NCBI GenBank assembly: GCA_963924555.1
Contig: OZ004591.1
Coordinates: 6,634,001-6,698,000, forward strand
DNA length: 64,000 nucleotides
DNA from: Crambe crambe
Lineage: Eukaryota > Porifera > Demospongiae > Poecilosclerida > Crambeidae
Direction of reading: 5' to 3'
In this document: positions 45,811 to 53,182 of the stretch, in pieces
Layout: each line of letters begins with the position of its first letter
Numbering within the stretch: position 1 is the stretch's first letter
Position numbers and translations under genes: made by a program
Notes under the pieces: model-generated
Seen by the model: the letters and a program-made list of their open reading frames with translations, nothing else
Told to the model about the DNA's origin: nothing
Databases searched by the model: none

Positions 45811-48800
45811 TCAGATACGAAGTGGATGTTCTGGAATTATTCCGCCTTGCTCAATCACCTCCTTTGCTATCTCAGCCATGTTGCTGTCTAGTTGCACATC
45901 CCTGGAGCTTGACAAGCTCTTGAGGTTTTGCTGGATTCTTTCAAAGGTCTGGTCGCACCACACTGTGGCTAACATTCGTTCGTGTGCTTTGTTTGGAGCA
46001 TCTTCACTCAACGACTTGGATGCTCTGGATATATGAGAGGATAGTGATCGTGGTGAAGAATTTTTCTATAAGGATAACTCCAGCCCTTATTAGACCCAAA
46101 ACAATTGTGAGAATAGGCTACCTAGCTAAACGTTCTCACCTTGCTATCACTGCTGCCATTGTATAAGTATCAATTGATGCATTTCCAAGTCTGTGCAACA
46201 AACACTGCTCATCTGCAAGATGGAAGAGGAGGAGGAGGATTTATACAAATTAATTCTTAAACTTTCCATGGTGACATACGGATTATGTTTTTTCTGTACT
46301 TGAGCAACAGAGCCTCACAAGCAGCACCAAAATCTCCGACTGCTTGGCTCAGCTGCAAGTATACCAGTCAGTACTGGAATCATACACAGGAGAAATTAAA
46401 TGGTCTTACTTGGTCAGCTGAAGCAGCCAAATCAGCATGAACACTGCCTGATATCAAGGGGGCTTTTGTTGAACCAACCATCCTATATTTGGATGTAACT
46501 GAATTTATGCTCTAAGCTACTATCTAGTATCCATACCTCATGGCCCTCTTGGTTCCCTCAGAGAAAATCACACCCAAATTCATTCCTTTCATGTCTTTCT
46601 CCAATTCTCGTAACTGTTTTCCAGCAAACTGCACATTATTTACAGTGGTGATTAAAGGGGTCATGGCTATTTCCCCTTCAAGGAAAGGAGGGCAAACCTG
46701 GAGGCCTGTGAGAGAGATGAAGAGACGGAGGATGTCGTTACTGCCTTCAAATATCCTAAAGATTCTCAGATCTCTCAGCACCCTCTCCAGACCACAGTCC
46801 TGTGAGCATCACAACATAATTGACATGTCAGACTGAACTGGTGTGTGCAGTGCACGTACAGTCATGAACCCCATGCCTCCATACAACTGTATGCAGTCAT
46901 CCACCACTGCCCATGCCGCCTCCTGCACAATCGCATCACACATCACTATCTTCCTCCTATCACTTCATAGCCTACTAACTTACAGATGCAAAGATTTTAC
47001 CAATGGCCGCCTCTAGCTGGTATTCAGTTGAGCCTCTATCCATGTTTCCACTCAGCAAGTAGGCCAGGGACTAATCATACACAAATTCACTGATGATGTA
47101 CAGGTATGACGACTCCCTCACCTCTGTGACATAGTGAAGCAGGGCCATACGACTGATCTTCTCCTTCACTAAACCGTATGTCTCCAGTTTGCTGCCGAAC
47201 TGAACACGAGTTGTGGCATGTTCCACCTGCATTCAGGCAAGTAGGTAGTGGATGAACAGATACACATGAATGTGCAAATCCTTACAGCTCTGGTGATGGT
47301 TTTTTTTATGGTGCCAGAGAGACCGGACACCATTCCAAACCGTCCATTGTTGAGAATGTTCATGGCCACTTTAAATCCTTCCCCTTCCTCTGAGGGAGGG
47401 AGAGTTATCAAATTGAAAGGAACTGATTTATGACTTGACTTACTTCCCAGCAAGTTCTCCACAGGAACCTTTACATCATCAAAGTGGACCTCAGCAGTGT
47501 TGGAGGCCTTGATCCCCATTTTCTTCTCCGGAGGACCACTGGTGACACCTCCAAATGAACGCTCCACAACAAAGGCAGATATTTTGTCCTTGACTTCACC
47601 TGTCTTAGGGTCTTTGACTGGTGTCTGAGCAAAGACCGTAAAGATCTCTGCTATGCCTCCATTGCTGATCCTTTATCAGAAGTATTATTGTAAATGAGTC
47701 AGCTAAATGCAACACTTTGTCAAGTTTTACCATAACTTGCCACCATTGAGAATGTAATGCTTGCCATCTTTACTCAACTCTGCTCTTGTTCGAATTGACT
47801 GTGTAAAGAATTGGCATGTAGTGGGAAGTTTATGTGGATTTCAAATATCCTCTATAGGATTATGCTTGCTACTTACACTAGCATCAGATCCACTGCTTGG
47901 CTCAGTGAGGCAGAAAGCTGCCACATTCTTTCCAGATGCCAGAGACGGCAGATACTTTTTCTTCTGCTCATCTGTCCCGAAAAGAAGAATCCCCTTGAAA
48001 CCAATGGACTACAAGAAGATCAAAGAGCAGAATGGGAAGGGTGAGGGAGAAAAGGATGGAGAATCATGAATAATTATGGAGAGAGACTGACATGTTATAG
48101 TGTACCTGATGTGCTCCCAGACATATACCAATACCCAGATCATTCCCTCCTCCAATCTCGGTCATCAGAGCATACTGGGAGTTAGTGAGACCAATGCCAC
48201 CAAGATCTGTAGGAACTTGCATTCCAAAGGCTCCCATCTCTCGTAGGTGCTCCATAATCTCCGCAGGGATCTTCTCTTCCCTGTCATTTCTAGCGGGATC
48301 ATTCACTTCCTGTGGTAGACATAGCAATGAAGGTGTCAATACCACTTCATTGAAAACACCTACTGCACCCTTATTAGCGCACTCTAAGCTAATTTCTCAC
48401 CTCGAAGAACTTGGTTACGGGATCTACAAACATCTTGACATTCTCCTTCTGTTCCTCAGTCAATACTACACAAATAAAATATCTGATTTCTGCTCAATCA
48501 CAACTCATGACATACCTTCTGGATAAGGAAAAAGTTCAGTAGTCTCCATTTTTCCCAAGAAGGTATTCATGACAAAAGACTTGTTTTCGGTGCCATAGTG
48601 TCTCTGGGAATGGGTGTGCCAGAGTGGGCGGGGCATCAGTGTTACAGCATATCTATTTATTGTATGTGTATGTGTAGAAATAGGACATGTCGACAGGATA
48701 TGATATTTGCCAGAGGCAGGATATTGTGGATGTGGCCCAATACACAAGGTTTGGGCAGTAAAATTGACATAATGGCTGGTGGCTGAAGTGGTGGCCAAAC

Positions 48801-49096
48801 CCAGCAAAATGTTTGTAACATGTATCTGGCTAGGAACAATAGACCACTGACCACACAATAGGTAGTAAACAACCGTGGAGTACTTTTCAGCTGAAAAAGG
48901 CCTCTACTGGTTTCTCTACTGTCTTATTAGCTACAGTAAGGTCTACCTAAAGATTGGAATCGTTATCTACTTGACACACTGACTCTAGAGCTGGCTGGCT
49001 AGCTAGCTGCATAAGCTGTATAAAGACCTAGCTTCACCTTGAACCTGTTAGGAGATGCCTGGAGCAAACGTGGGCCAACAGTGGAAATCTGTTCAT
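45811..49096 (-). CDS. ACADVL: very-long-chain acyl-CoA dehydrogenase, copy A
   Basis: A mitochondrial flavoenzyme for the first step of long-chain fatty acid beta-oxidation (acyl-CoA to trans-2-enoyl-CoA). Seventeen exons (minus): 49096-49038, 48601-48516, 48465-48401, 48309-48106, 48008-47877, 47798-47731, 47670-47444, 47389-47286, 47226-47122, 47070-46984, 46922-46860, 46799-46698, 46628-46537, 46482-46410, 46352-46280, 46212-46140, 46024-45811; about 608 residues. A short Arg-containing presequence ([20 protein letters not shown]) fits mitochondrial import. Acyl-CoA dehydrogenase signatures: [13 protein letters not shown] (FAD site), [26 protein letters not shown], and the catalytic-base motif [13 protein letters not shown], which with the C-terminal extension (KSLSED...[14 protein letters not shown]) marks the VLCAD/ACAD9 branch rather than MCAD. 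A 69-bp stop-free intron after LTGLQ (46697-46629) may be coding instead, giving about 631 residues. Confidence 0.93.
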
Positions 49097-52400: not shown

Positions 52401-53182
52401 CAGTTACGAGAATTGGAGAAAGACATGAAAGGAATGAATTTGGGTGTGATTTTCTCTGAGGGAACCAAGAGGGCCATGAGGTATGGATACTAGATAGTAG
52501 CTTAGAGCATAAATTCAGTTACATCCAAATATAGGATGGTTGGTTCAACAAAAGCCCCCTCGATATCAGGCAGTGTTCATGCTGATTTGGCTGCTTCAGC
52601 TGACCAAGTAAGACCATTTAATTTCTCCTGTGTATGATTCCAGTACTGACTGGTATACTTGCAGCTGAGCCAAGCAGTCGGAGATTTTGGTGCTGCTTGT
52701 GAGGCTCTGTTGCTCAAGTACAGAAAAAACATAATCCGTATGTCACTATGGAAAGTTTAAGAATCAATTTGTATAAATCCCCCTCCTCCTCTTCCATCTT
52801 GCAGATGAGCAGTGTCTGTTGCACAGACTTGGAAATGCATCAATTGATACTTATACAATGGCAGCAGTGATAGCAAGGTAGCCTATTCTCATGTTTTGTG
52901 TCTTCAGCTATACGATAAATTCTTCACTGTGAAGAAGTAGCTATGACTCTACCCTCTCATATATCCAGAGCATCCAAGTCTTTGAGTGAAGATGCTCCAA
53001 CCAAAGCACACGAACGAATGTTGGCCACAGTGTGGTGCGACCAGACCTTTGAAAGAATCCAGCAAAACCTCAAGAGCTTGACAAGTTCCAGGGATGTGCA
53101 GCTAGACATCAACATGGCCAAGATAGCAAATGAGGTGATAGAGCAGGGTGGAACAGTTCCAGAACATCCTCTTCATGTCTGA
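49427..53182 (+). CDS. ACADVL: very-long-chain acyl-CoA dehydrogenase, copy B
   Basis: An inverted paralogue of copy A with the same 17-exon structure and identical exon lengths: 49427-49485, 49639-49724, 50612-50676, 50739-50942, 51000-51131, 51219-51286, 51347-51573, 51628-51731, 51791-51895, 51947-52033, 52095-52157, 52218-52319, 52389-52480, 52535-52607, 52665-52737, 52805-52877, 52969-53182; about 608 residues. The presequence [20 protein letters not shown] parallels that of A. FAD-site [13 protein letters not shown] and catalytic [13 protein letters not shown] are kept, so both enzymes look functional. Exon 4 differs much (about 44 of 68 residues the same by my count; for example IGICLGAHQ in A versus ISVFIAAHQ in B), which may alter substrate preference, while exons 5-16 and their introns are nearly identical. 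The last exon is again somewhat diverged. A 222-bp minisatellite sits in intron 2. Confidence 0.93.
49868..50090. repeat. ~48-bp minisatellite in intron 2 of VLCAD copy B
   Basis: Five copies of a unit with AAAGTGGTACCCCACTGGCA, CAGGAATGGGGGGTAGCTAG and AGTTCAT. It is absent from copy A, so it arose after the duplication or was lost from A. Confidence 0.93.

Follow-up and report, generated by a model that had tools for sequence, protein, structure and literature searches.

The window analysed here is a stretch of 64,000 nucleotides from the sponge Crambe crambe (contig OZ004591.1, 6.634-6.698 Mb, of the assembly GCA_963924555.1, which comprises 143 Mb in 119 contigs). It carries two divergent, head-to-head genes for acyl-CoA dehydrogenases of the very-long-chain (VLCAD) type, gene A on the minus strand and gene B on the plus strand, each with 17 exons and 16 introns and with a reading frame open across all 17 exons. 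The main elements of the locus are the following.

45811..49096, minus strand: gene A, predicted VLCAD-type acyl-CoA dehydrogenase of 625 aa (open exon model, Pfam ACAD and ACAD9-ACADV_C domains, N-terminal VLCAD match)
49427..53182, plus strand: gene B, predicted VLCAD-type acyl-CoA dehydrogenase of 627 aa (open exon model, Pfam domains as in A, full-length VLCAD match)
49097..49426, no strand: intergenic gap of 330 bp between both start codons (from length and sequence)
49725..50611, plus strand: intron 2 of gene B, 887 bp, enlarged by a dispersed short element and a 48-bp tandem repeat

The 330-bp gap is presumably a 5' region shared by A and B and a putative bidirectional promoter of both genes. 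A palindrome, TGACGTCA, was noted in it at 49154 and GCGCATGCGT at 49204; these resemble a cAMP response element and an NRF-1 site, respectively.

An initial annotation of this DNA had given both genes 17 exons of identical length. The number of exons stands and the lengths are equal in 16 of the 17 pairs, the exception being exon 2, which measures 137 bp in A and 143 bp in B, a difference of 6 bp. The first introns differ in size: intron 1 has 385 bp in A and 96 bp in B, and intron 2 has 50 bp in A and 887 bp in B. The 48-bp tandem repeat of the latter lies at 49898-50088, and the dispersed short element gave a match at 49777-49836 (within about 49738-49848), with at least 40 further matches in the assembly, some of them close together. 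By eye, the surroundings of this element are hairpin-like, as in a small miniature inverted-repeat transposable element, for which it is a candidate only.

Divergence along the gene pair

A scan of 264 contiguous kb around the pair, in which hits and not families were counted, returned a single inverted hit with a length of 250 bp or more and an identity of 70% or more, namely A/B, beside 51 direct hits, all with copies less than 20 kb apart. The inverted arms consisted of 1677 nt at 99% identity (46138-47814 / 51203-52879) and 205 nt at 97% identity (47815-48019 / 50989-51193). The parts of the two genes are listed below, with the differences counted between A and B.

48106..49096, minus strand: gene A exons 1-4, diverged 5' part (130 differences in 455 coding columns before the break, synonymous divergence 1.09)
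49427..50942, plus strand: gene B exons 1-4, diverged 5' part (counts as for A)
46140..48008, minus strand: gene A exons 5-16 and introns, near-identical core arm (22 substitutions in 1869 columns, one 9-bp indel)
51000..52877, plus strand: gene B exons 5-16 and introns, near-identical core arm (counts as for A)
46025..46139, minus strand: gene A intron 16, an island of divergence (115 bp; 18-bp insertion at the donor end, 7-bp palindrome private to A)
52878..52968, plus strand: gene B intron 16, an island of divergence (91 bp; 8-bp palindrome private to B)
45912..46024, minus strand: gene A exon 17, first part, core-like (3 differences in about 111 nt, p 0.11 versus exons 5-16)
52969..53081, plus strand: gene B exon 17, first part, core-like (counts as for A)
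45811..45911, minus strand: gene A exon 17, last part, of intermediate divergence (15 differences in the last 99 coding columns)
53082..53182, plus strand: gene B exon 17, last part, of intermediate divergence (counts as for A)

The alignment of the arms with an identity profile, as the initial annotation had proposed, gave a step-shaped divergence and not a uniform one along the genes. The synonymous (dS) and nonsynonymous (dN) divergence of A versus B, obtained from Nei-Gojobori counts, was 1.09 (62.5/108.6 sites) and 0.218 in exons 1-4, 0.036 (10/283.7 sites) and 0.0011 in exons 5-16, and 0.236 (9/44.5 sites) and 0.057 in exon 17, the synonymous differences of exons 1-4 and 5-16 being distinct with p = 8e-32 in a Fisher test. 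The Bayesian information criterion preferred three coding segments, with 130/455, 14/1321 and 15/99 differences, over one, two, four, five or six. The near identity of exons 5-16 with their introns, which the initial annotation had described, is borne out by the 22 substitutions in the 1869 columns of the core, and its estimates of about 2 differences in intron 12 and 3 in intron 15 correspond to measured identities of 67/69 and 64/67 bases; over introns 5-15 there were 11 differences in 670 aligned bases. The protein encoded by exons 5-16 differs in 1 of 400 residues. The differences within the core are evenly spaced (p 0.44 for spacing variance, p 0.70 for the longest run), 19 of the 22 substitutions are transitions, and 10 of the 11 coding differences are synonymous versus 24% expected at random (p 5e-6).

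Introns 1-4, called unalike before, are indeed so: their alignment is scarcely or not above the level of shuffled sequence (0.81 vs 0.78, 0.92 vs 0.92, 0.72 vs 0.65 and 0.74 vs 0.69 for introns 1 to 4). On the far side of the left edge, A and B retain matches of 76% in exon 2 and 74% in exon 4, and a recount confirmed that exon 4 keeps 44 of 68 residues. The similarity had been placed as starting at exon 5 (51000 in B, 48008 in A), and the left edge is sharp there; the match also includes the final 10 bases of exon 4 and most of the dozen bases at the end of intron 4.

On the other side a fading after exon 16 had been reported. This holds for intron 16, which is diverged, but the similarity returns in exon 17, and the true break lies 55-112 nt into this exon, between 53023 and 53081 in B and between 45970 and 45912 in A. 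In exon 17, 3 differences fall within the first 112 nt and 15 within the other 102; they sit at offsets 12, 32 and 54 and then from 112 onward. The first 111 nt of the exon are indistinguishable from the coding sequence of exons 5-16 (p 0.11), whereas the remainder differs from those 111 nt (p 0.002) and is in turn less diverged than exons 1-4 (15/99 vs 130/455, p 0.005). Residue changes affect 8 of the last 33 codons of exon 17 versus 1 of the first 37.

In intron 16 the two genes share 66 of 78 aligned bases, with large gaps. Gene A has an insertion of 18 bp at its donor end, further indels separate the copies, and each copy has short palindromes that the other lacks; template-switch mutation could be the source of these palindromes. 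Due to the 18-bp indel, the donor reads GTAGCC in B (52878) and GTGAGA in A (46139); the donor of B looks weaker, and splicing there may differ.

Enzyme type and N-termini

Both proteins contain the N, middle and C domains of Pfam ACAD together with ACAD9-ACADV_C, all above the curated cut-offs. The full-length B protein scored 713-720 bits with four VLCAD chains and 555-556 bits with two ACAD9 chains; the N-terminal 155 aa of A scored 131-134 bits with VLCAD chains versus 80 with ACAD9, and the N-terminus of B 98-114 versus 71. In their sequences A and B are full-length VLCAD-type enzymes, nearer to VLCAD than to ACAD9, and are predicted to act as long-chain acyl-CoA dehydrogenases in mitochondria. 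The RIFEG motif occurs in both, in the same stretch aligned with RIFEGANDILRLF of 8ca1, and includes the presumed catalytic glutamate. With the first 297 aa of A, NCBIfam returned 20 families, every one below its curated cut-off. At the sensitivity of exon-by-exon matches no third VLCAD- or ACAD9-like gene was evident in the assembly, where 8 of the 14 ACAD matches lay elsewhere than in A and B, with identities of 32-48% and scores of 28-48 bits. In a pattern search for relatives none of 43 matches in viral contigs was confirmed, and at least 207 in genome contigs were, the 80 kept being all titled bacterial.

In the possession of a full-length VLCAD-type chain with the ACAD9-ACADV_C domain, the sponge proteins are like vertebrate VLCAD (ACADVL) and ACAD9; unlike in the vertebrate split of these two, the N-termini of A and B cluster apart from both types of chain in an unrooted tree of five sequences and 111 columns. 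A VLCAD/ACAD9 pair was rejected, as both N-termini favour VLCAD and group together in this tree, and a retrocopy was rejected on account of the 16 introns in both genes.

Among the sequences compared, the N-termini of A and B are each other's closest, and the split that joins them against the VLCAD and ACAD9 chains had 100% bootstrap. Over the 111 residues they share 74, while the VLCAD chain 7s7g, which we take to be human, shares 61 with A and 53 with B, and 8ca1 shares 59 and 57. The distance between A and B amounts to about 0.6 of the mean distance to 7s7g (bootstrap 95% 0.44-0.82), and the simplest reading of these sequences would be an ancient duplication that nevertheless postdates the separation from the vertebrate lineage. 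The N-terminus of B likely evolves faster than that of A, although this is not firm: the branch lengths are 0.356 for B and 0.109 for A, and the unique differences 12 for B and 4 for A with 7s7g as the outgroup (chi-square 4.0), but 10 and 8 with 8ca1 (chi-square 0.2). With dS near saturation, the dN/dS of exons 1-4 is about 0.2, so that both N-termini seem constrained.

No acidic residue precedes residue 42 in A or residue 44 in B, which is in keeping with mitochondrial targeting peptides. Exon 4 ends in a stretch of 12 residues in A and in B, versus DLGVGITLGAHQ in 7s7g and DLGVSVTLGAHQ in 8ca1, and this end probably belongs to helix E. In LCAD helix E is reported to shape the substrate cavity (PMC10925408). 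The two N-termini, to which the targeting peptide and one wall of the acyl pocket would belong, may differ in function, and an altered chain-length preference in B is a guess.

Origin of the near-identical stretch

The pair is very probably an old inverted duplication, in which gene conversion between the arms recently homogenised the stretch from exon 5 to a point within exon 17 while the front ends escaped. High identity including the introns was found within otherwise diverged paralogues, and both ends of the tract are in register; a step of this kind at silent sites and in introns, with both borders at corresponding positions of homologous genes, is the mark that gene conversion between paralogues leaves. 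A VLCAD gene would have been duplicated long ago as a head-to-head inverted pair, both copies of which were kept functional, and non-reciprocal conversion between the arms would later have homogenised exon 5 into exon 17, probably more than once. The latest event, or set of long events, would have reset the entire exon 5-16 core, and the even spread of differences is what a joint last reset of that core should give. An older event probably extended further into exon 17; such an episode is suggested by the end of this exon, which is less diverged than exons 1-4, and by intron 16, which can still be aligned, unlike introns 1-4. Exons 1-4 would have escaped as insertions and drift altered their introns beyond any possible alignment, and since introns 1-4 are no longer alike, a conversion tract leaving the core would end at intron 4. 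Selection for two different N-termini is an alternative or an added reason for the escape, inseparable with these data from the loss of intron homology. Conversion as the cause, its recurrence and the reason for the escape of exons 1-4 are what we infer. The earlier proposal of an old duplication converted over about 1.9 kb is supported by the in-register steps, but the stretch is about 2.0-2.1 kb long, runs into exon 17 and includes the diverged island of intron 16. Several small recent tracts within exons 5-16 were also considered, and there is no sign of them, the differences being evenly spread.

The explanations that dispense with conversion are all improbable, to different degrees, and each is at odds with some measured feature. 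A recent partial inverted duplication, in which fresh exons 5-17 were joined behind an old, separately diverged fragment with exons 1-4, would also yield a near-identical core with a sharp left edge located in an intron. The pasted block, however, would have had to fit a partner that was already homologous, in register on either end, the right edge lies within exon 17 with more diverged homologous coding sequence beyond it, and 16 of 17 exons are equal in length. As both edges are in register, with older homologous exons to the left and the rest of exon 17 to the right, overwriting fits better than a pasted partial copy, and we consider the latter unlikely. An artefact of assembly or polishing, with cores made alike by misplaced reads or one locus written twice, deserves mention because near-identical inverted arms are a known hazard, and it appears slightly less likely still. 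The copies differ in their N-terminal halves, in introns 1-4 and in the outer flanks on both sides; the coding differences in the core, nearly all synonymous, and its substitutions, mostly transitions, are not those that sequencing error would produce, and the synonymous nature of the coding differences argues for two working genes. The locus is present once in the assembly: the core has two matches, both at the locus, the middle 3 kb has one full-length match, and the search with exons 1-4 gave 6 matches, all at the locus. An uncollapsed second haplotype is unsupported by these searches.

Crossing over between the arms, which would invert the middle and exchange the front ends, is very unlikely as the main process. 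Arms of about 2 kb at 97-99% identity around a middle of 3 kb are a plausible substrate for it, and the encoded pair of proteins would hardly change with the orientation, but inversion alone would not make the arms alike, and one orientation only was seen, in one assembly. The last explanation, that both genes have the same age along their whole length and that strong purifying selection preserved the likeness of exons 5-16 as exons 1-4 drifted, is hardly tenable. The catalytic part is indeed the more conserved, as its single residue difference indicates, but A and B resemble each other as closely at synonymous sites and in introns 5-15 as they do in the protein, and such near-identical introns exclude selection at the protein level as the cause, barring an extreme constraint on the introns.

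Several points weigh against gene conversion or complicate it. The diverged intron 16 within the near-identical stretch is unexplained by one simple tract, and unequal constraint could explain part of the gradient in exon 17. A rise of GC content in the core is not clear, and no clear signal of GC-biased conversion was seen: the GC content at third codon positions in exons 1-4, 5-16 and 17 is 0.48, 0.49 and 0.51 in A and 0.41, 0.48 and 0.51 in B. As to orientation, a review on Caenorhabditis (PMC3966223) reports conversion in either orientation with relative rates undetermined, and one study suggests that pairs in the same orientation convert more often, so that the former premise, by which inverted paralogues would convert "efficiently", is not settled.

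Mirror-image pairs of this kind are known from other animals. The palindromic Amy-p/Amy-d and Hsp70 pairs of Drosophila, treated in a review (PMC3924832), are adjacent paralogues in mirror-image arrangement, in which conversion maintains the similarity and the flanks evolve independently; the similar part is given there as coding sequence, whereas in the VLCAD pair it takes in 11 introns and most of the gene body and leaves the first four coding exons outside. The GOT1p1/GOT1p2 pair of Tigriopus californicus is likewise a pair of metabolic genes with a mosaic of high and low divergence, in which regions of high divergence persist despite apparently ongoing conversion (PMC3728101); that conversion is backed by population data, and the VLCAD pair is known from one genome. 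The converted paralogues named in the Caenorhabditis review (PMC3966223) include head-to-head hsp16 genes, with tracts that enter introns between adjacent genes of either orientation; these are other genes in other animals, and the split into a diverged front and a homogenised body is a particular feature of the VLCAD pair. The pair is a clear further example of known mirror-image conversion, a mechanism that is already well known; no description of such a VLCAD pair was found in the one library searched, with the terms used and among the entries shown.

It could serve as a clean natural case for what halts the spread of conversion, be it the loss of intron homology or selection for two N-termini. 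A tree or a dating derived from the conserved VLCAD core would call the duplication recent, while the first four exons say that it is old. It is tempting to speculate, though we hold it to be rather doubtful, that the pair evolved in concert through a substantial part of animal history, with two interchangeable front ends on a self-correcting catalytic body common to both, the crossing over that flips the 3-kb middle swapping these ends harmlessly and the front end of B having moved to a new role in chain length or targeting.

Other features nearby

One exact match to YGCGCAYGCGCR, an NRF-1-like consensus, was noted at 53247, between gene B and the gene downstream of it; the latter starts at about 53.4 kb and is tubulin-like by eye. 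Direct repeats at 90-92% occupy 61825-64000 and continue beyond the end of the window, in units with repeated open reading frames of about 120-135 aa that look SRCR-domain-like by eye. Outside the window, on the same contig, an overlapping block of direct repeats with 74-98% identity lies at about 72911-77559 in window coordinates. On the other side of the gene pair, an open reading frame of 424 aa at 21452-22726 resembles, by eye, a Sox-type HMG-box protein.

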